Assembly: GCA_003833135.1 (NCBI GenBank) | Contig: QZLH01001001.1 | Coordinates: 7,249 to 37,635, forward strand | Direction of reading: 5' to 3' | Length of the DNA: 30,387 nucleotides | DNA from: Oehlia diaphana | Taxonomy: Eukaryota; Glomeromycota; Glomeromycetes; Glomerales; Glomeraceae | Shown: positions 2,691 to 27,001 of the stretch, in pieces | How positions within the stretch are numbered: position 1 is the first letter of the stretch | Layout: every line of letters begins with the position of its first letter | Program-made: the position numbers and the translations under genes | The notes under the pieces: generated by a model | The model's database searches: none | Seen by the model: the letters and a program-made list of their open reading frames with translations, nothing else | Told to the model about the DNA's origin: nothing

Positions 2691-3128
2691 TCAGCTTACC
2701 CAAAACTTATGATGATTATTTTCTGATAGGTGACTTTAAATTTTCTCTGTCTTTATTCTCCTTATACATAATTACTCACGAGGTGATTGTTTATTGTTAC
2801 GACTACGTTTCACGGAAACACAGCCACACAATATAAGGTTCCCAATTCACATGTTATATGAATAATAAGTACAAAGATTTAATTAAATACGCGTGAAAGC
2901 ATGATAATGTAAACCGATCAATAAAAAAGAATTATTTGTATACTCTAGAATCTTCCATGGAATGATGAGCCCGACGTTTTAATTTATTATCGTATAACAA
3001 AACTACAACAATTAAGCAATTGAAGGTTACAACTTTTTTTTGATCGACACCTTTCTTTCAAAATGTAACTTGTATGAGATTCCAAATTAGTCCATTTCAC
3101 GGAGTGTTATTTATCTACTTCCGTTACA
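2691..3128. other. non-coding stretch
   Basis: AT-rich, with no supported exon, repeat or RNA. Confidence 0.45.
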
Positions 3129-11985: not shown

Positions 11986-12543
11986 CTAGGGAGATTTATT
12001 CGAATAGGCATGATCTTGTTGAATCAGATTTCGAATATCTGAACTAGAGATAATAATAGTTGCACGAGGAGAACTTATAGTAATTCCGAGTGAATTAAGT
12101 AAAGGAAATGCATTACTAGAATTTTGATCGTTGCATTGCGGGTAAAAATGTGGGGAGGAAACGTTATTGGGCGCAGTTTGATGATTATTATGACCAACTT
12201 TATCGTTTGAAGCGTCACAGGAAATTTGTTGCTGAAAATGATTATGGCCAATAGAAATAATATCGGTATTGTTTGAAGTGCTATAGGACATAGATTGCTG
12301 ATGATAATCATTATGGTCAGTGAATGTGTTTATATGTGTAGGATGTGTAGGAAAAGTATCATTGTTCAACCCGGAAATATCATCATTGCAGTTGCAAGAA
12401 GGAACATAGCAGTTATTATTTGAAAAACGCCCCGCTTGAGTAGCATTTGTTACAGTCGTTTGCGGAAAATTATTGTTAATGGATCCACCGGTAATATTGA
12501 ATCCGTGAACATTATTATTGTAATTATTGTGTAAAGGATTCAT
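11986..12543 (-). CDS. Asn-rich low-complexity protein, 185 residues
   Basis: On the minus strand, the ATG at 12541-12543 opens a 185-residue frame to TAG at 11986-11988. I prefer this start over the ATG at 12603 because the protein-like composition (MNPLHNNYNNN) begins here and the 20 preceding codons are AT-biased. The protein is rich in Asn, Ser, His, Gln and Thr, with Cys-containing CYVPSCNCNDD, QQ/HNH patches, and a more ordered Leu/Ile/Ser end (LNSLGITISSPRATIII). It has no signal peptide, membrane segment or catalytic motif. Such composition is typical of disordered regions in fungal regulators, so it may be one exon of a larger protein. It stands alone with AT-rich flanks. Confidence 0.55.
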   Translation of the reverse strand: MNPLHNNYNNNVHGFNITGGSINNNFPQTTVTNATQAGRFSNNNCYVPSCNCNDDISGLNNDTFPTHPTHINTFTDHNDYHQQSMSYSTSNNTDIISIGHNHFQQQISCDASNDKVGHNNHQTAPNNVSSPHFYPQCNDQNSSNAFPLLNSLGITISSPRATIIISSSDIRNLIQQDHAYSNKSP

Positions 12544-12607
12544 GTAAAAAAAAATATATCTAATATTAATAAAGTCTTTAACTGAACTTTTTAAATATGA
12601 CAACGAA

Positions 12608-12700
12608 ATGTTGAAAATGATAGGATTTTTTAAACTTGAAATTGGAAACGATATGGGTTTAAATAAAAAAATTGTAGATGATCTGATTACACAAATTTAA
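12608..12700 (+). CDS. 30-residue open frame, possible exon
   Basis: MLKMIGFFKLEIGNDMGLNK continues with KIVDDLITQI and TAA. The frame is open upstream to about 12560 (KSLTELFKYDNE), so it could be the end of an exon. The amphipathic pattern looks protein-like. It is antisense to the region upstream of the Asn-rich gene. No family was recognised. Confidence 0.22.
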   Translation: MLKMIGFFKLEIGNDMGLNKKIVDDLITQI

Positions 12701-15769: not shown

Positions 15770-17129
15770 CTGCGATGTTAGGAAAAAGTTACGATCCAAA
15801 TCTCGTGGATTTCGAACTTATATGAGTCAAAAATCCTATTGGGAATAAGGAAACGCTTTTCTTTTACAATAAATAAAAAAAAAGAAAATTTATAAGTCAA
15901 AAACTATTTTAATAGCTTTTAACAATTGAACTGAACCAGTTCCGAACTGGTTCCAAAGACTGGTTTAAAATATGCTCAACATCAAAATTATGATGACCAT
16001 GAACCAACTGTTGTCCAATCAAAATTTTTTTAATTCATCATCAACACATGCTCTACTTGTGTCTTTAATTTGACACATGTAGCTCATATTTTTCTTAATG
16101 GGAACCGATGCGGAACTGATGGGAAACCGAAATGGAATTGGACGAACCGTCCCCATCCTTATAAATAGGTAAGTCGTAAATATTAAAATATAATTATTGA
16201 TTTATTTTACTGTATATGTACATATACTAATTAACAAATTTCAAAGATTTTCTTAAAATATAAAAGGTACTTTCCTATAAGCTCAAAAATCAATTCTTCG
16301 AATTCATAATTATTTCTATGCACAGTAGATTTAGACTATTAGTAATTTTATTAAGTATCTTATCCCCACGATCTTATCCGGATTGCCAATTAAAATGATG
16401 GCAATCTTTAAATAAATCAATATTAATTTTATCATCTAGAATAACACATGTAGCCAAAATTAATTGGTTTAAGTGCATTGTTTAATTTAAATTTATTAAT
16501 AATTGCTAAAACTATTAGATTATTACTTATTAGGGTACAAAATATCGCTTTAAAATTCATATTGTAGATTTGCGCGATACTAGTGATGTTGACTTAACTG
16601 AAACCAAATGTTAAAATTGTTTCAACATTTGTTATTTTTGTTTTAGCTAATTGTTGTAATTGTTGTAAGGCTATAATAAAGTTTAAATGATTGTTTGCTA
16701 AAATTAACTTTTGTATACAATATGCATTTGATAACAGAATTATTTTTATTGTTTGTAATAAAATAAAATTTTTTTGTTAAAATTAAATTTTCTGAGATCA
16801 GTTTCCTAGGAAATAAAAAATCAGACATGTGATCAAATTTAAATTTTTATCAGCAACGTTGGTTTTACTTTAATTATAATTCTATTAAACCACCAATTAA
16901 GTCAGAATCACTACACAGTACATGATTTAAGCCGGATTGTGTTATTGTATATAATATATTTCTGGAGATTATTTATATTATTGTTTTTTAATTGTAAATA
17001 CTAAATAGTTATTAGATGGAGAATAGAGTGGTTGAAGACAGATATCAATGCTAATAATAATAATTTCAGTATTGGATGTTTAATAAACAAATCAGTCATT
17101 AAAATCCTGTATATTCCTAATCGACTATA
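15770..17129. other. mostly non-coding, with a worn GGTTCC-rich repeat
   Basis: Bases about 15925-16160 carry near-palindromic AACCAGTTCCGAACTGGTT and several GGAACCGA/GGAAACCG words. These resemble in style the element at 29191-29416, but without ends I can define. A short inverted pair (CAAATGTT / AACATTTG) lies near 16608-16632. Near 16575 there is a fragment like the tail of the CaaX repeat units (GACTTAACTGA). No gene is supported. Confidence 0.35.
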
Positions 17130-17536
17130 CAATAATTGATAATAATATTCTAACGTTAAAATTTATACCGAGCTATGATACAGATATTTATGGGATTACA
17201 TAATAGGAACCTATTACTAAGATTTTAATACTTTGTAAAAATGGTCATTTTATTCATTTTATTACTTGATCATTTTGGTGATGGGTAGTCTAAAATTATT
17301 TGTGAGATCTACTGTAATTCGTTAATATTGTCTACAGTATACGTCAGACTAATCCTCCTTTTTTATTATTTAGTCAATTTTTAAAATATGTTTATTGGAA
17401 CTTTGGTTCTCATGATATTTTAAAACATGTGTATGTTTTACCATTTTAGTAATTATAAAACAACATTTGTAACAACAAGAAAAGTCGATCTAATCATGGA
17501 TTTTTCATGATAATATTCACTTGACACTTGACGTTT

Positions 17537-17621
17537 TATAAATAGGTAACAGGTAACGAGTATATACTATTAGCTCTAAACGTCAGAGCCAGAGTTACAT
17601 AATGCCGGCTGGTATAGTCTA
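17537..17621 (+). promoter_or_regulatory. unit 1 upstream TATA block
   Basis: TATAAATAGG (17537) is followed by CAGAGCCAGAGTTACATAAT and an ATG (17602) opening only six codons (MPAGIV, stop). It is conserved in units 2 and 4 and partly in unit 3, about 0.75 kb before the CaaX start. It could be the promoter and leader of a longer transcript, a non-coding RNA, or a decayed small gene. Confidence 0.45.
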
Positions 17622-18195
17622 AAAAAGGAAGGATCTACACACTAATTCAACCTATTTATATCATGGGATCTGCGATGATAACAATTGTAATAAGTAATAA
17701 TAGTTAATGGAAATCATTGTTTCTTTATATATATTACATTATTATATATATATATACATTTTCTTTGTAAATGAAAAGTAACACAAAATCTACATTCTTG
17801 ACTAACTAAAAAAATTATTTATAATTTTTACTATTTTTTCATATCATTACCCACGTAGTGATCCTTAACAAAATCGGCTAAACCCATTCTGATTGTAATC
17901 CTAATTTAATAATAAGAATTGTTGTAAATCCTATTTAGGTAGATTTACGTCTTGAAAACTTTTCTGAAATGGTAAATAGAAAAAAAACATAAAAATGGAG
18001 TGGAAGGTGGTCTATTTACTTAGTATTACTTTTGATTGGAAGCTAAAAATATAAAAATTGCAATTGCATCAAATAATAACAATTTAAACTCGTAACATTT
18101 AGGGATGTTCTAAGAAAAAGAATATCAAGATATCCTGATATAATCGGATTAGAATTTTTTAGTATTATTCTTGATTTTCGTTTGTTTTGAATTAT

Positions 18196-18203
18196 TATAA
18201 ATA
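18196..18203 (+). promoter_or_regulatory. TATA box, CaaX gene 1
   Basis: TATAAATA followed by TGACTTCGATTTCGC, kept in all four units. The start codon is 127 bases beyond the box. The A/C-rich leader (CTCAAACAAACAAA..CTTCACAAAGTCAA) looks like a 5' untranslated region. Confidence 0.6.
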
Positions 18204-18329
18204 TGACTTCGATTTCGCTTTCAAATTTTCTACCAAATAAAAAATCTCTCAAATAAAAAAAAAGTTACCTACTCAAACAAACAAAAAAACTTCACAAAGT
18301 CAACTAATTTAAAAACAGACCGAATCAAA

Positions 18330-18428
18330 ATGAATCCAATCGCTAGTACTAAACCAGCTGTTATTGTCGTTTCTGCTGAAGTGACTGAAAAGCCGGCTCA
18401 ACCTACCAACTCATGCTCTATTATGTAA
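18330..18428 (+). CDS. CaaX pheromone-precursor-like peptide, copy 1
   Basis: A 32-residue frame starts MNPIASTKPAVI and ends VVSAEVTEKPAQPTNSCSIM, TAA. The C-terminal Cys-Ser-Ile-Met is a CaaX box. Met as last residue favours farnesyltransferase, with later removal of SIM and carboxyl methylation. Precursors of fungal a-factor-type pheromones are short, start with a plain leader and end this way. Many basidiomycete ones are cut at a pair of charged residues before the mature part. Here Glu20-Lys21 precedes PAQPTNSC, giving a possible eight-residue lipopeptide. The frame has its own TATA box and leader, no upstream splice acceptor is needed, and there is no signal peptide or membrane segment. 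It has Ser6 and Pro9. Ras/Rho or G-gamma tails also end in CaaX but belong to much longer proteins. Confidence 0.72.
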   Translation: MNPIASTKPAVIVVSAEVTEKPAQPTNSCSIM

Positions 18429-18840
18429 ACGAAAGTTTACTTTGAAATGAAAAAGTTTTACTCTACAATTGTTCTTTTATTACTTCCGACGGATAACTGA
18501 CGAACGGAATATTCCTCTATTACTGGCCTGATGTTTATTATCTACAAGAATGAATCAATATATTTTTATTAATTTTAATTTATCTTATTATTTATATCAG
18601 TCCTAATTTTCTTTTTGAATTAAAGTATTTTCTTTAATATTTATATCGCATTTTTCTTATATCTCAACTCTTATATTTGTAACACGTGATTTACAATTAC
18701 TATAGTTACACAGATCGTTTACCTAGTCGTAAATGTACCTTATTTTATTTTAATAATAAAAATTTTGAATCGTAATTTATTAATTTGTTACAAAATTTAA
18801 ATGTGTATCGTTTTTAAATGTTTATATTAATGAATTTTCT

Positions 18841-19331
18841 CCGCACATTCGAATCCTCTAATAACAAAATACAGAAATTTTAAGTAAAAAACTTTTTTAA
18901 AGTTATAATTCTGTAAGTTAAGTCGGCATCACTATAATATTAAGAGTGGTATTTATGAAGAGGTATATGAAATTCATTATTATTTATGTTCATTTAATTT
19001 TTGTGAAAAAGTTTTCTTTTGTTTGAAGATTTTATTTATCAACCATAATTTAAAATTCTACTTTAATCCAGTATTTTCTCATTATTTTTTGAAAATAAAT
19101 TTTTCTTTCGACAATTTTTAAAGTAATGTTTAAAAAGACTTGAAAATTTCTTTTTTTTTATAATATTACCTGTACGAAAAATTTTCTTTTACGTATCCAG
19201 TCTGTTATTATTACAATTAGTTAGTTAGTAGACTTTATATTACAATTTTCATTTCATTTTTTTTTTCAAAGCCAATAATAAATCTTATTTCATGATATAC
19301 AGTAAATTATAAATCCAAGATTTAATTTCAT
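18841..19331. repeat. inverted segment in unit 1 tail
   Basis: This 491-base stretch is the reverse complement of 21264-21909 in unit 2. Its left junction follows ATTAATGAATTTTCT, the same word that precedes the forward segment in unit 2. Units 3 and 4 keep the forward order, so unit 1 is the derived one. The adjoining CAATTAACTGACGGTGTCAA (from 19379) is also reversed relative to 21910-21935, implying more than one rearrangement. Confidence 0.65.
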
Positions 19332-20005
19332 ATTATATACTGTATATATTACTATATATATATATTTCAATTTAAGCAATTCAATTAACTGACGGTGTCA
19401 AAGTCACTTTTATTATAATATTTTTTTAATTATATTATTAATATAAACTCGTAAATAAGTATCTAATTTTATTGCATGAGTCATACGCACCATACACGTC
19501 ATACTATACAATAAATAGTGATAAGATTGATTACAATAGTGGTTATCGTTAATACCGATCAACTTAGAAGGAAAAAAAAATGGCAAAATTGAATTGTGTT
19601 ATAATTGATAACTATACACTAACTACTAAGATTTTAATACTTGTTTTATTCATTTTATTACTTGACTCGTTTAATGATTTTGATAGACTGAATTCAGGTA
19701 AATTTGACGGTGGCAAATTTGTTCAATGTGATGAATAATCCAAATTTTTTTTTAGAAACTAGTACTGCAATTCAGTTCATTAATATTGTTTACAGTATAA
19801 TTTATAATTACGTTAGACTAATACTCCTTTTTTCTTATTTATAATATTTTTAACAATTTCAGAATATGTTTATTGGAACATCAGTTCTCAAATTCTAAAT
19901 TCTAAACCATGTGTATAATTTTACTATTTTAGCAATGTTAGAACAACATTTGTAACAACAAGAAAGGACGATCTCATCATAAACACTTAATATAATATTC
20001 CGTTT

Positions 20006-20190
20006 TATAAATAGGTATAAACAAGAGTACTATTAGCTCGCCTCTTCAGAGCCAGAGTTACATAATGCCAGCTAGCATTATTAAAAAAGGAAGGATCCAC
20101 ACATTAGTTTTAGGTTCATTCAACCTATTTATGCAAATAACGATTAATGATATCATGAGATCTGCGAGATACAACAATTGTAATAAGTAA
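20006..20190 (+). promoter_or_regulatory. unit 2 upstream TATA block with a 41-codon frame
   Basis: TATAAATAGG at 20006 leads to AGAGCCAGAGTTACATAATG. In this unit the ATG at 20065 opens 41 codons (MPASIIKKGRIHTLVLGSFN...) to TAA at 20188-20190. In units 1 and 4 the same frame stops after six codons and in unit 3 after sixteen. The long frame is thus probably chance, and the conserved thing is the DNA or RNA. Confidence 0.4.
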
Positions 20191-20662
20191 TAATAATTAA
20201 TGGCAAATCATTGTTATATATATATATATATATTATATTTATATACATTTTCTTTGTAAATGAAAAGTAACACAAATTTTACATTCTTGACTAACTATAT
20301 CATGTATTAAAATTACCCACGTAGTGATCCTTAACAAAATCGGTTAAATTAATTTCTGATTGTAATCCTAATTTAATAATAAGAATTGTTGTAATTTGGA
20401 CACCCCATTTAGGTAGATTTACGTCCTTGAACTTTTCTGAAATGGTAAATAGAAAATAAAAGCATAAATTGGAGGGGTAGGACTGGAAGGTGGTTATTAT
20501 TACTTTTGATTGGAAGCTAAAAACATAATATTTGCAATTGCATCCGTCTAATAATAACAATTTAAACTCATAACATTTAGGGATGTTCTAAGAAAAGATA
20601 TCCCGATATAATCAGATTAGAATTTCTAGTATTATTCTCGATTTTCGTTTGTCTCGAATTAT

Positions 20663-20670
20663 TATAAATA
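20663..20670 (+). promoter_or_regulatory. TATA box, CaaX gene 2
   Basis: TATAAATA with the conserved TGACTTCGATTTC downstream. The start codon is 115 bases beyond the box. Confidence 0.6.
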
Positions 20671-20784
20671 TGACTTCGATTTCTCTTTCAAATTTTCTTT
20701 CAAATAAAAAAATCTATTAAATAAAAAAAAAATACCTACTCAAACAAATAAAAAACTTCACAAAGTCAACTAATTTGAATCAAA

Positions 20785-20883
20785 ATGAATCCAATCGCTA
20801 ACACTAAAACAGCTGTTATTGTCGTTTCTGCTGAAGTGACTGAAAAGCCGGCTCAACCTACCAACTCATGCTCTATCATGTAA
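20785..20883 (+). CDS. CaaX pheromone-precursor-like peptide, copy 2
   Basis: This is the same 32-residue plan as copy 1. It differs only by Asn6 for Ser and Thr9 for Pro, and its residues 13-32 are identical. The Ile31 codon is ATC rather than ATT, a silent change next to the CaaX end. The conserved leader just before the ATG is 12 bases shorter than in copy 1. The tail of this unit carries the 159-bp MITE at 21991. The family reading (farnesylated pheromone-like precursor) is inferred from the CSIM end, the short length and the array; there is no direct proof. Confidence 0.72.
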   Translation: MNPIANTKTAVIVVSAEVTEKPAQPTNSCSIM

Positions 20884-21990
20884 ACAAAAGTTTACTTTAA
20901 TTGTTCTTTTATTACTTCCGACGGATAATTACGAACGGAATATTCCTCTTTTACTGGCCTGATGCTTATTATCTCTAAACGATGAAAAGAATGAATCAAT
21001 TTATTTTTCTTAATTTTAATTTACCTTATTATTTATATCAGTCCTAATTTTCTTTTTGAATTGATAAAGTATTTTCTTTAAAATTAATATCACATTTTTC
21101 TTATATCTCAATTTTTTATATTTGTAAAACGTGATTTACAATTACTATATTTACACAGATCGCTTACCTAGTTGTAAATAATTCATTTTATTTTATTAAT
21201 ATTAATTCGTTACAAAATTTAAATGTGTATCGTTTTTAAAATGTTTATATTAATGAATTTTCTATGAAAATTAAATCTTGGATTTATAATTTATATCATG
21301 AAATAAGAATGATTATTGGTTTTGAAAAAAACTGAAATGAAAATTGTAATATAATGTCTACTAACTAACTAATTGTAATAATAACAGACTGGATAGTACG
21401 TAAAAGAAAATTTTTCATACAGATAATATTTTATTCATATAAAAATCAAACAATAATTATCTACAAAAAAAAGTAATTTTTCTTTAAAAATTGTCAAAAG
21501 AATAATTTATTTTCAAAAATAATGAGAAAATACTGGATTAAAGTAGAATTTTAAATTATATCTTCAAATAAAATAAAAAAAACTTTTTCACAAAAATTAA
21601 ACGAACATAAATAATAATGAATTTCATATACCTCTTCATAAATACCACTAGTGATACCAACTTAACTGACAGAATTATAATTTTAAAAAGTAAAAAACAG
21701 ACGTTGTTGATAAAAAGTTTTTTAGAAAACATCATGGTCATATGTCTGTAGAAAAATGAGCGTTTATCGGAATTTTTCTCAGCAAATTTTTTATGCGTTT
21801 CATATGATAAATTTAATAACAAACAATTTAATTTTATTACAAAGAGATTTTACTTCAAAATTTCTGTATTTTGTTATTATTCTATAGTTAAGGGGATTCG
21901 GATGTGCGGTGACTTTGACACCGTCAGTTAATTGATTTATTTAAATTTAAATGCATAATATATAATATATACAGTATACAGTATAATAAC

Positions 21991-22149
21991 CCCAGTAAAT
22001 AGTTTTTGTATAAATTTATACCAAACGGGCTCATTGGCTCGAAATTAGCTCAAATTTATGCAAAAAATAATCCAAATATAAGCCAATCTAGCCAATTATA
22101 TATAGATGAGCCCATTTGGTACAAATTTATACAAAAACTATTTACTGGG
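21991..22149. mobile_element. 159-bp MITE in unit 2 tail
   Basis: Terminal inverted repeats of about 44 bases begin CCCAGTAAATAGTTTTTGTA and end with the reverse complement (CTATTTACTGGG), with about two mismatches. The flanks repeat AAC (21988-21990, 22150-22152). Unit 3 shows the empty site ATAATAACGTAT near 24928, confirming a 3-bp duplication. It encodes no protein. The superfamily is uncertain; a 3-bp duplication would allow CACTA- or PIF-like origins. Confidence 0.85.
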
Positions 22150-22815
22150 AACGTATAAAATAACGTGTTATAACTTTTAATTTAATTTAATATTAATATA
22201 AACTCGTAAAAAAGTATTTAATTTTATTGCATGAATCATGCGCATCATACGCGTCATATCATACGATACAGTAAATAATGATAAGATTGATTACAAATAG
22301 CGTTAATACCGATCCACTTAGAAAGACAAAAATAAAATGGCAAAACTAAATTGTGTTATAATTGATAATAATATACTAATGTTAAAATTTATACCGAGCT
22401 ACAGATTATATCGAAATCCTACTACTAAGATTTTAATACTTTATAAATGATTATTTTATTACTTGACTCGTTCAATGATTTTGATAGATTGAATTCAGGT
22501 AAATTTGACGGTGGCAAAATTTGTTCAATGTGATAAATGGTCCAAAATTTTTTTTAGAAACTAGTAGTACTGTACTGTAATTCATGCAGTTCATTAATAT
22601 TGTTTACAGTATAATTTATAATTACGTTAGATTAATACTCCTTTTTTCTTATTTATAATATTTTTAACAATTTCAGAATATGTTTTATTGGAACATACGT
22701 TCTCAAATTCTCAAATTCTAAACCATGTGTATAATTTTACCATTTTGGTAGAAAAACATTTGTAACAAGAAGAAAGGACGATCTCATCATGGACACTTGA
22801 TATAATATTCCGTTT

Positions 22816-22905
22816 TATAAATAGGTATATACAAGAGTACTATAATGTTGGGCTGTATTGTCCAAAAATGGAAGGATCTACAGGTTAGTGATAAATGATT
22901 ATCAT
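22816..22905 (+). promoter_or_regulatory. unit 3 upstream TATA block, partly deleted
   Basis: TATAAATAGG at 22816 is kept, but the CAGAGCCAGAGTTACATAAT stretch found in the other units is missing. The ATG at 22845 opens only 16 codons. The TATA box outlasting the rest suggests promoter function or simply recent loss. Confidence 0.38.
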
Positions 22906-23460
22906 GGGATCTGCAAGAAACGATTATAATAAGTAATAATAGTATTTCACGTTAATTATTTTCATTGTTTTGTATGTATGTGTATTACATTATTATACAT
23001 ATATATTTTTTCTTTTTAAAAGAAAAGTAACACAAAATTTACACTCTTGACTAAAAAATTTTTTATAACTTTTTTACTATTTTTTCATATCATGCATTAA
23101 CAGTAGTACCCACGGCGTGATCCTTAACAAATTGAAATCGGTTAAATCCATTTCCGATTGTAATCCTAATTTGATAATAAGAATTGTTGTAATTTGGAAT
23201 GACATCTTATTTAGGTAGATTTACGTCTTTAAAACCTTTCCTGAAATGGTAAATAAAAAATAAAATTATAAATTGGGATGGAGAGTGGTGGTATTACTTT
23301 TGATTGGAAGCTAAAAACATAATAATTGCAATTTCATCAAATAATAACAATTTAAACTCGAAACATTTAAGGATATTCTAAGAAAAAGAATATCAAGATA
23401 TTCCGATATAATCGGATTAGATTTTTGGTATTGTTCTTAATTTTCGTTTGTTTGAATTAT

Positions 23461-23468
23461 TATAAATA
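23461..23468 (+). promoter_or_regulatory. TATA box, CaaX gene 3
   Basis: TATAAATA, then TGACTTCGATTTCGC. The start codon is 127 bases beyond the box, as in copy 1. Confidence 0.6.
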
Positions 23469-23594
23469 TGACTTCGATTTCGCTTTCAAATTTTCCATCA
23501 AATAAAAAAAACTTCAAATAAAAAAAATTACCTACTCAAACAAACAAAAAAAACTCCATAAAGTCAAATAATTTAAAAACAGATCGAATCAAAA

Positions 23595-23693
23595 ATGAAT
23601 CCAATCACTAGTACTAAACCAGCTGTTATTGTTGTTTCTGCTGAAGTAACTGAAAAACCGGCTCAACCTACCAACTCATGCTCTATCATGTAA
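23595..23693 (+). CDS. CaaX pheromone-precursor-like peptide, copy 3
   Basis: Thirty-two residues with Thr5 in place of Ala, otherwise as copy 1. Silent changes occur at Val13 (GTT), Val18 (GTA) and Lys21 (AAA). Residues 13-32 are unchanged, including Glu20-Lys21 and the CSIM end. It shares Thr5, GTA and AAA with copy 4, so units 3 and 4 are closest relatives. The gene is preceded by the conserved A/C-rich leader. The tail of the unit holds a 346-bp inverted-repeat insertion at 24141. Confidence 0.72.
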   Translation: MNPITSTKPAVIVVSAEVTEKPAQPTNSCSIM

Positions 23694-24140
23694 ACAAAAG
23701 TTTACTTTGAAAAGTTTTACTCTACAATTGTTCTTTTATTACTTCCGACGGATAACTGACGAACGGAATATTCCTCTTTTTACTGGCTTGATACTTACGA
23801 TTTACAAAAATGAATCAATATATATATATATAATTTTAATTTATCTTATTATTTATATCAGTCCTAATTCTCTTTCTGAATTAAAGTATGATTTTCTTAA
23901 ATTTTTGTATTTTCAATTTTTTATTTTTGTAACACGTGATTTACAATTACTATATCGTTTTACCTAGTTGTAAATATATTTTGTTTTATTTTAATAATAA
24001 AAATTTTGATTCATAATTTAAATATGTGTACCGGTTTTATAATGTTTATATTAATAAATTTTCTATGAAAATTAAATCTTTGCTTCATGATTTATATCAT
24101 GAAGAAAAGATTAATTATTGACTTTGAAAATCAAAAATTA

Positions 24141-24486
24141 TCACACCACTGGTGTTCAACACCACAGTTATATGTAATAATTATTTTTATTTATCATATA
24201 ATTTTTTTATTCTATTAATAGTCTAAATAAGATGTTTCCATTAATAAAATGTTATAATCCATATTGCAATATTTAATGCTGTATCATATACTTCACATAT
24301 ATTTTTCTTAGTTTTTCAATTTTTTTTTTTACTTTTGCAATATTTATGATATAAAAAAAAAAAAGTACTTAGTAAAACTTTTTCTGTCCATTTTCAGGGG
24401 TGCTGAACAATTTTTAATTAGAGTAACTTCTTTAATTTAAGCTATATTTTTCATGAAAACACATACTATGGGCACCAGTGGTGTGA
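24141..24486. mobile_element. 346-bp inverted-repeat element in unit 3 tail
   Basis: TCACACCACTGGTG at the left is mirrored exactly by CACCAGTGGTGTGA at the right. The block is absent from the matching positions of units 2 and 4. A GTTCAACACC word near the left end has an inverted partner (GGTGCTGAACA) inside, near 24399. Target duplication is unclear, so the exact borders may be a few bases off. No protein is encoded. Confidence 0.6.
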
Positions 24487-25531
24487 TTTATAAAGCTCCT
24501 TGAAAAAAAAGGAAAATTGTAATATAAAGTCTAACAAATTGTAATAATAACAGAGTGGATACATAAAAGAAAAATTTTCTTATGAAAATCAAATAATGAT
24601 TGTATCTATAAAAAAAAAGAAATTTTAAAGTCTTTTTAAACATTTCTTTGAATTGTCGAAAGAAAAATTTATTGTCGACTTAACTGAGAGAATTATAATT
24701 TTGAAAAGTAAAAAACAAACGTTGTTGATAAAAAATTTTTAGAAAAATGATCACTTGTCTGAGTTTTTTAAGCGTTTATCGTTGTTTGGATTTCATATGA
24801 TAAATTTATTAATAAACAATTTAATTTTCTGTATTTTGTTATTATTCTATAACTAGAGGATTCTAATATGGGTGACTTTGACACTGTTTTGTTTAAATTG
24901 AAATGTATAATATATACAGTACAGTATATAATAACGTATATAATAATTATTTTTTTTTAATTATAATAATATTAATATAAAACTCAATAAATATATTTAA
25001 TTTGATAAGATTGACTAAAATAGCGGTTATAAATAATGACAAAACTAAATTGTGTTATAATTGATAATATTATACTAACGTTAAAATTTATACCGAGCTA
25101 CAGATTATATCAAATATTTTATAGGAATCCTATTACCAAGACTTTAGCACTTTGTAAATGATCATTATTAATTTTATTACTTGATGATTTTGAATTCAAA
25201 TAAATTTGACGGCGGGCATCTGTTCAATATGATAGTTCAAATTTTTTTATGAGATCTACTGTAATTCGTTAATATTGTCTATGGTATAATTTATATTATG
25301 TCATAATAATCCTCTTTTTCTTATTTAAAATTTTTTATGTTACATTTTAACAATTTTCAAATAAGTTTATTCGAACTTTGGTTCTCGTATTCTAAACCAT
25401 GTGTATAATTTTACCATTTTAGAAATTTTAGAACAACATTTGTAACAACAAGAAAAGTCGATCTAATCATGGAACTTTTCATGATGATAATATTTACTTG
25501 ACACTTGAAACACTATTCGTCTATTCCGTTT

Positions 25532-25616
25532 TATAAATAGGTAACAAGAGAATTTACTATTAGCTCTACAGTAAACGTCAGAGCCAGAGTTACATAATGC
25601 CGGCTGGAATTGTCTA
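25532..25616 (+). promoter_or_regulatory. unit 4 upstream TATA block
   Basis: TATAAATAGG at 25532, then CAGAGCCAGAGTTACATAAT and ATG at 25597 opening MPAGIV and a stop, the same six codons as in unit 1. Keeping the same six-codon frame in units 1 and 4 could mark a short upstream frame or simply shared ancestry. Confidence 0.45.
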
Positions 25617-26174
25617 ACAAAGGAATGATCTACACATTAGTTTGGGGTTCATTCAACCTATTTATGCAAACAACGATGAAGGGATCTACAAGACGATTGT
25701 AGTGTTTCACATTAATTATTTTGATGGCAAATCATTGTTTTTAAAAGAAAAGTAACACAAAATTACAATCTTGACTAACTAAAAAAACTTTTTATACCTT
25801 TTTTACTATTTTTTCATATCATGTATTTATAGTACCCTCGTGTGATCCTTAACAAAATCGGTTAAATTAATTTCTGATTGTAATCCTAATTTAATAATAA
25901 GAATTGTTGTAATTTGGAATGACATCCTATTTAAGTAGGTTTACGATTTGAAAAATGCCTGAAATGGTAAATAAAAAATAAAAACATAAATTGGGATGGA
26001 AAGTGGTGATATTACTTTTGATTGGCAATAATTGCAATTTAATCAAATAATAACAATTTGAACTCGAAACATTTAAGGATATTCTAAGAAAAAGAAAAAG
26101 AAAATCAATATATTCCGATAAAATCGGATTAGAATTTTTAGTATTATTCTTAATTTTCGTTTGTTTCGAATTAT

Positions 26175-26182
26175 TATAAATA
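26175..26182 (+). promoter_or_regulatory. TATA box, CaaX gene 4
   Basis: TATAAATA with the conserved downstream word. The start codon is 115 bases beyond the box. Confidence 0.6.
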
Positions 26183-26296
26183 TGACTTCGATTTCGCTTT
26201 CAAATTTTCCATCAAATAAAAAATTTCTCAAATAAAAAAATTACCTACTCAAACAAACAAAAAAAACTCCACAGAGTCAAATAATGTCGAATCAAA

Positions 26297-26395
26297 ATGA
26301 ATCCAATCACTTGTACTAAACCAGCTGTTAATGTCGTTTCTGCTGAAGTAACTGAAAAACCGGCTCAACCTACCAATTCATGCTCCATCATGTAA
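26297..26395 (+). CDS. CaaX pheromone-precursor-like peptide, copy 4
   Basis: Thirty-two residues with Thr5, Cys6 and Asn12, the most diverged leader of the four. Residues 13-32 are nevertheless identical, with silent changes at Val18, Lys21, Asn27 (AAT), Ser30 (TCC) and Ile31. The extra Cys6 is outside the CaaX context. The unit is truncated about 600 bases further on, beside the minus-strand Myb-like gene. As with the other copies, prenylation is a firm motif-based expectation, while a mating role is inference. Confidence 0.72.
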   Translation: MNPITCTKPAVNVVSAEVTEKPAQPTNSCSIM

Positions 26396-27001
26396 ACGCA
26401 AGTTTACTTTGAAAAAAGTTTTACTCTACAATTGTTCTTTTATTACTTCCGACGGATAACTGACGGACGGAATATTCCTCTTTTTACTGGCCTTATGCTT
26501 ATTATCTCTCAACGATCTACAAAAATGAATCAATATATATTTTTTAAATTGTTAATTTATCTTATTATTTATAGTATCAGTCCTAATTCTCCTTTTAAAT
26601 TAAAACTATCTACTTTAATATTTGTATTTTCAATTTTTTATATTTGTAATACGTGATTTACATTTACTATATTTACACAGACCGTTTACCTAGTTGTAAA
26701 TATATTTTGTTTTATTTTATTAATAAAAATATTGAATCGTAATTTGTTAACAAAATTTAAATATATCCTTTTTAAAGATTTTATATTAATGAATTTTCTA
26801 TGAAATTATGAAATTAAATCTTGGATGGATTCATGATTTATATCATGAAGGAAAGATTGATTATTTATTGACTTTGAAAAAAAATGAAATGAAAAATTGT
26901 AACCTAAAGCCTGACTAACTAATTGTAATAATACTGGATACGTAAAAGGATAAATTTTCGTACAGGTATTAATATTTATCGCTTGAAGCTTTTCATACGC
27001 T

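Follow-up and report, generated by a model that had tools for sequence, protein, structure and literature searches.

Do arbuscular mycorrhizal (AM) fungi make a peptide mating signal? Sex in these fungi is a long-standing question, and they have kept the pheromone receptor STE3, yet a survey found no pheromone gene in them (PMC3834313; this paper, like the others cited here by PMC number, is drawn on in excerpt, and what is said of each, negatives included, extends to those excerpts). The question is raised anew by 30,387 nucleotides (nt) of contig QZLH01001001.1 from Oehlia diaphana (Rhizophagus diaphanus), referred to here as the window (C972:7249-37635 in an assembly of 108.8 Mb and 1672 contigs). 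The window carries a tandem array of four very short genes whose products end in a C-terminal CaaX motif. A preliminary description, made from the letters alone, proposed a cluster of pheromone precursors and supposed that the host might be a glomeromycete, which it is. The analysis reported here supports the proposal, as a reading of sequence, and places the local cluster within a genome-wide family.

The four intact frames lie on the + strand, encode 32 amino acids (aa) each, and all terminate in CSIM followed by a stop codon. With the stop codons included, copy 1 (MNPIASTKPAVIVVSAEVTEKPAQPTNSCSIM) occupies 18330..18428, copy 2 (MNPIANTKTAVIVVSAEVTEKPAQPTNSCSIM) 20785..20883, copy 3 (MNPITSTKPAVIVVSAEVTEKPAQPTNSCSIM) 23595..23693, and copy 4 (MNPITCTKPAVNVVSAEVTEKPAQPTNSCSIM) 26297..26395. 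The four peptides are alike, yet no two are identical. The preliminary description of these frames, set in a 2.5-2.8 kb repeat and each preceded by a TATTATAAATA box, was confirmed; the start-to-start spacings are 2455, 2810, and 2702 nt. Chance does not explain the frames because random sequences average 0.08 CaaX-ending frames of 25-45 codons, with a maximum of 1, in 100 dinucleotide-Markov sequences of window length. The GC content of the window is 26%.

The window copies are four of at least 25 family loci in the genome. A protein search gave 25 loci and a second, different query gave the same 25, a number that is a lower bound given that both searches scored exactly 25 candidates. Twenty-one loci are intact and are spread over nine contigs: nine on C672, where copies occur in both orientations, the four of the window on C972, two on C14, and one each on C21, C1362, C227, C948, C111, and C456. 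The four degenerate loci (L022-L025, on C672, twice on C83, and on C208) have lost the start codon, contain an internal stop, or show the motif with no stop after it. At least two more partial copies, detected by similarity at the DNA level only, lie beside intact copies (L011 oriented 600-810 and L020 oriented 2800-3090), and both are degenerate.

All 21 intact precursors are 29-34 aa long, below the upper limit of 100 aa for a-factor-type precursors, and every one has a C-terminal CaaX motif, CSIM in 20 and CFIM in one. The intact copies encode 20 distinct peptides, with the consensus MNPTIITSKPVVIVTSEVTEKPGNPTNSCSIM. Upstream of the motif is a pair of residues that reads EK in 17 copies, EN in three, and KK in one, with the first residue 13 positions from the C terminus (14 in those with EKPDGNP). 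In 18 of 21 copies the pair is thus charged and stands at a distance of 10-15 residues from the C terminus. The stretch from this pair to the cysteine, the predicted core of the mature peptide, is EKPGNPTNSC in 11 copies, EKPDGNPTNSC in two, ENPGNPTNSC in two, KKPGNPTNSC in one, and ENPVQPKGVC in one, while the four window copies share EKPAQPTNSC. In the window this core would be encoded at 18387..18416, 20842..20871, 23652..23681, and 26354..26383 (all +), with the mature N terminus placed from the tally of cores and from the charged-pair rule for basidiomycete precursors (PMC5100862). The mature core would be either of the EKPAQPTNSC type or the PAQPTNSC of the preliminary description, the latter following from a cut after the pair. 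Conservation extends beyond the predicted core into VIVxSEVTE. A PTNQC form is found in three degenerate copies (L022, L023, and L025) and is intact in the R. clarus protein P0025 and in P0023, P0024, and P0028, described below; this subfamily may have been lost in the present genome.

The pattern of change between copies indicates what is being maintained. Among the four window copies the ratio of nonsynonymous to synonymous differences per site (pN/pS) is 0.22 (pN 0.036, pS 0.167); it is 0.27 in eight non-overlapping pairs and 0.37 over all 210 pairs. The eight pairs, hand-picked by the analyst and covering 16 of the 21 copies, show 22.5 silent versus 19.5 replacement changes where 24% silent is expected (P 6e-5). 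Within the frame, the six window pairs show 6.6 mismatches per 100 and align without gaps; the 600-nt flanks have 12.2 per 100 upstream and 22.0 downstream, along with 157 gaps, of which 127 have a length that is not a multiple of three. Eight other hand-picked pairs give 4.7 mismatches per 100 in the frame, with four gaps that are all multiples of three, and 198 gaps and 33 mismatches per 100 in the flanks, the last figure being inflated by flanks that barely align (450 mismatches in 598 downstream of L012/L014). The window figures are safer for that reason, and in all these comparisons the pairs share ancestry, such that the substitution and gap counts are not independent. In the 21-copy alignment the invariant columns are 1 (M), 20 (E), 25 (P), 29 (P), 33 (C), 35 (I), and 36 (M), and at columns 25, 33, and 35 the codons vary though the residues are fixed. 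Judged from these substitutions and gaps, the family frame is protein-coding and under purifying selection.

The copies also have a common upstream region. The predicted TATA box, TATTATAAATA, recognized by its conservation across the family, lies at 18193..18203, 20660..20670, 23458..23468, and 26172..26182 (all +) for copies 1 to 4 and begins 125 or 137 nt 5′ of each start codon in the window. Across the genome a TATAAATA motif begins 125-159 nt 5′ of the start codon in 20 of the 21 intact copies, L019 being the one without it. The pattern GTTTGTTTNGANTTATTATAAATA, with up to two mismatches, has 12 matches in the genome, 10 of them directly upstream of family copies; the reversed pattern, used as a control, has six matches. 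Between about -160 and -40, and likewise in the frame, identity between copies is elevated; it then falls, with a second elevated stretch about 180-220 nt past the start. Transcription would begin near -100. A GTTTGTTT box (window 18180-18187 and matching sites) stands 5 nt 5′ of TATTATAAATA and is kept in many copies. It resembles forkhead or HMG-box sites and is a possible route of regulation. Comparison by eye made no promoter words common to STE3 and the family evident.

The preliminary description had called for homologues in related species, and these are present in R. irregularis and R. clarus. Protein-database searches gave 11 public relatives, two of which had already appeared in the first search: P0001, P0002, P0022, P0026, P0029, and P0030 from R. 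irregularis; P0025 from R. clarus, which ends ERPLKPTNQCSIM; and P0023, P0024, P0027, and P0028, whose source labels are jgi or lgn. CSIM forms the C terminus of seven of these 11 proteins. When five of the R. irregularis proteins are cut down to the region of similarity, each is zero to three residues away from its best host copy, which fits a near relative. There seems to be a tandem array in R. irregularis too, since P0022 and P0026 have consecutive gene numbers and equal-sized contigs (16,462). Several of the R. irregularis models (P0001, P0002, P0022, P0029, and P0030) appear to fuse two copies or to exit the frame before the stop, which may be why annotation missed the genes. On our reading of the sequences the deviant models are probably faulty: P0022 joins two copies, P0002 enters an inverted copy, and P0001 and P0029 exit the frame after CSI. 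The protein database gave no match from another named genus, though frames so short are seldom annotated and no absence elsewhere is claimed.

A lipopeptide signal needs a receptor and modifying enzymes, and the partner genes that the preliminary description had suggested looking for were largely found. One STE3 gene was detected, as two adjacent exon matches on contig C1422, placing a receptor of this type in the same genome as the precursors. It has a full PF02076 domain (E 6.5e-62), and over 586 aa the protein spliced from the two exons shows 100% identity to a record from Rhizophagus diaphanus, so that the host is this species or one extremely near to it. A search of the protein database, with 7998 candidates scored, gave 19 STE3 matches, 17 of which bear the names of Glomeromycotina genera. 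About 300 residues follow the Pfam domain of this receptor as a C-terminal tail (L028:8073-9307) with PRTPRTP repeats, and across an alignment of 13 proteins the main residues of one tail block, HRTPxEQAxFDLTSG, do not vary. A phmmer search of Protein Data Bank sequences with residues 1-303 of STE3 gave no match at E<=0.001. For processing, there are three prenyltransferase-beta-like loci (C443, C1287, and C114); a piece of the C443 gene gives stronger matches to farnesyltransferase beta chains of solved structure (best E 1.5e-14) than to geranylgeranyltransferase I (5e-8). The best ICMT/Ste14 match is on C1027 and a Ste24 match is on C282, so that genes for farnesyltransferase beta, Ste14, and Ste24 are all found, together with a weakly matching Rce1. 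An orthologue of the exporter STE6 has been reported for Rhizophagus (PMC3834313). A search of the genome for STE2 was empty; it had no positive control, and absence is not claimed. Linkage to a homeodomain mating-type (MAT) candidate was considered and set aside, as the sole Homeobox_KN match at E<=0.001 (seven candidates scored) is on C1265, which is no family contig.

These findings make it probable that the family frames encode precursors of farnesylated peptide pheromones read by the host STE3. Farnesyltransferase would modify the cysteine of CSIM, an Rce1-type protease would remove SIM, and Ste14 would methylate the cysteine. A protease cut near the conserved Glu-Lys pair would then leave a peptide of about EKP(G/A)(N/Q)PTNSC-farnesyl-OMe, which a Ste6-type ABC exporter would secrete and to which STE3 on the same or another hypha would respond via a G protein. 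Such processing has some precedent, as yeast a-factor ending in CSIM is cleaved by Rce1, not Ste24, and supports mating comparable to that with the wild-type motif (PMC9231725).

A number of observations weigh against this proposal. Ligand and receptor are in one genome, which is unusual for a mate-specific signal, and a 2024 study argued that R. irregularis is likely asexual (PMC11414155). None of the 25 family loci is on the 25.9 kb STE3 contig C1422, leaving that contig without the linkage of pheromone and receptor genes seen at PR-type loci. The basic residue of the charged pair is absent in the three EN copies, and one copy has KK. The Rce1 match, on C512, is weak (26.2 bits with a cut-off of 22.4, E 4e-4). 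Among the public relatives, four of 11 gene models (P0001, P0002, P0029, and P0030) have no CaaX end and five (P0023-P0026 and P0028) start upstream of the MNP methionine. Comparison of seven family proteins with Pfam by hmmscan (E<=10) gave one sub-threshold match to an unrelated family and no known pheromone family, and a PF08015 profile search of the whole genome was empty, though run without a positive control. The family is not a member of PF08015 on this evidence, though it would work like an a-factor precursor. Lastly, an AlphaFold model of STE3 built from 13 sequences has long helices but a mean pLDDT of 37, too poor to use.

A secreted farnesylated peptide might signal to the host plant or to other microbes, or act in hyphal fusion via another receptor, with no part for STE3. 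The family size invites such a view, at least 21 intact copies seeming in excess of the needs of one mating signal, and non-mating roles have been cited for a-factor-type peptides, for example, hyphal conglutination in Neurospora (PMC10569646). We nevertheless think it unlikely: this genome retains STE3, as do, to judge by the names on the records, many other Glomeromycotina. The survey of AM fungi found no ligand for that receptor (PMC3834313). Slightly less likely again is that the peptides are prenylated and kept inside the cell as small membrane-anchored regulators, never to be exported. A CaaX motif by itself is no proof of export, and the conserved VIVxSEVTE implies a role for residues upstream of the Glu-Lys pair as well. 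Set against this are the features that match secreted precursors, namely the length, the single C-terminal CaaX motif ending in Met, the charged pair, and the multiple near-identical copies, as well as the reported Rhizophagus STE6 orthologue (PMC3834313).

That the frames belong to no free-standing gene at all, being carried along by a mobile repeat or forming the final exon of a gene for Ras, Rho, or G-gamma, is very improbable. The copies do sit within 2.5-2.8 kb tandem repeats, and the C672 cluster has both orientations. Among the similarities listed, distant copies mostly resemble one another along the upstream stretch, the frame, and the 3′ stretch, with no sharp boundary in common, and the frame is under purifying selection; this selection, with the Markov-sequence control, led us to reject a mobile-element passenger or a chance frame. 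The preliminary description would have withdrawn its proposal had the frame proved to be a last exon. The start codon and the N-terminal MNP are conserved across loci, in-frame stops occur at most 40 codons upstream in three of the four window copies, and the AG before copy 1 is not conserved. Both G-gamma matches lie elsewhere, on C271 and C858, and end differently, in CIIM and CLIS. A G-gamma or GTPase last exon was rejected on these grounds, with the Ras and Rho families outside the search.

If the frames are pheromone precursors read by STE3, the ligand genes and their receptor belong to the same genome, and R. diaphanus MUCL-43196 has been described as a homokaryon with a single MAT locus (PMC6281316). 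The fungus may therefore sense its own signal, or control it by when and where it is made rather than by a mate's genes. These facts, with the absence of family copies from the STE3 contig and the homeodomain match on a separate contig, fit self-sensing, timed signalling, or unisexual use at least as well as mate choice. Expression of a-factor candidates did not follow mating type in three Leotiomycete species (PMC10569646). When strains of R. irregularis were co-inoculated, putative mating genes were raised, with no pheromone genes reported among them in the excerpted text (PMC7490403). A more specific proposal, to which we give about an even chance, is that AM fungi use a peptide of about 10 residues, EKP(G/A)(N/Q)PTNSC-farnesyl-OMe, made from more than 20 genes and read by the single STE3 that the homokaryon itself carries. 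The fungi would then sense their own lipopeptide, which would be the missing ligand of AM-fungal STE3. It would be the first known case outside Dikarya of a peptide that signals mating or recognition. With a concrete ligand sequence, the question of sex in AM fungi becomes testable, and there would be a chemical means of probing how hyphae recognize each other and how strains cross in these fungi, which colonise most land plants.

The array around the four genes has features of its own. In the register of repeat family D8 the tandem units run from 17110..19578 (unit 1), 19579..22335 (unit 2), 22336..25034 (unit 3), and 25035..26900 (unit 4, right end approximate), all on the + strand. A spacer segment of about 330 bp lies in opposite orientations in units 1 and 2 (18938-19264 versus 21325-21656; three arm pairs, 82-97% complementary). 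The spacer of copies 2 and 3 holds a 159-bp element (21991-22149) with 44-nt terminal inverted repeats that are 95% complementary, which looks like a small non-autonomous transposon, and the spacer of copies 3 and 4 holds a 348-bp element (24140-24487) with perfect 15-nt terminal inverted repeats, ATCACACCACTGGTG, that resembles a miniature inverted-repeat transposable element. Outside the array, a 236-codon open frame at 11989-12696 (-) has a high content of Asn, His, and Ser; a 205-residue part of it has no match in Pfam.

Ascomycete a-factor-type precursors, such as yeast MFA1 and MFA2 and Neurospora mfa-1, are encoded by one or a few copies per genome. The family described here is like them in having a very short precursor, one C-terminal CaaX motif of a kind that often ends in Met, predicted farnesylation, and an STE3 receptor in the genome. 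It is unlike them in having no Pfam relation among the seven proteins compared, at least 21 intact copies on nine contigs, no STE2 match (in the uncontrolled search), and a lineage outside Dikarya. The C-terminal CaaX is the one strictly conserved character of a-factor-type precursors, and CSIM itself is present in a few Leotiomycete candidates (PMC10569646). The Magnaporthe precursor, MSPSTKNIPAPVAGARAGPIHYCVIM, is another of this type (PMC3068285).

In basidiomycetes there are several STE3 receptors. Precursors of the basidiomycete PR locus likewise have a CaaX end, many copies, and an STE3-type receptor; their CaaX motif is farnesylated, and the cut is presumed to fall close to a charged pair located 10-15 residues before the C terminus (PMC5100862). 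The pair 13-14 residues from the C terminus is ER, ED, or EH in basidiomycetes, EK in 17 of 21 host copies, and ER in R. clarus P0025. The host family departs from these precursors in length (29-34 versus 40-100 aa), in having no PF08015 match and no copy on the STE3 contig, and in the single STE3 detected.

Closer to hand, the Kex2-processed repeat peptides (KEPs) of R. irregularis are candidate peptide signals in the same genus; like alpha-factor, they carry a signal peptide and repeats that Kex2 cuts (PMC6339444), whereas the host precursors have one CaaX core at the C terminus and are free of repeats. Among the matches listed in a search of the open-access literature, with subscription papers and preprints outside its scope, there was no later report of CaaX pheromone precursors in AM fungi. 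The survey of Halary et al. (2013) found STE3 and STE6 and no a-factor or alpha-factor gene in the AM fungi it covered; it used TBLASTN with known genes, a protocol that also missed the known pheromone genes of Ustilago maydis, and it called for new methods (PMC3834313). The pheromone-sensing pathway that it described in AM fungi, with a receptor, an exporter, and a kinase cascade, is the one through which the present family would act.

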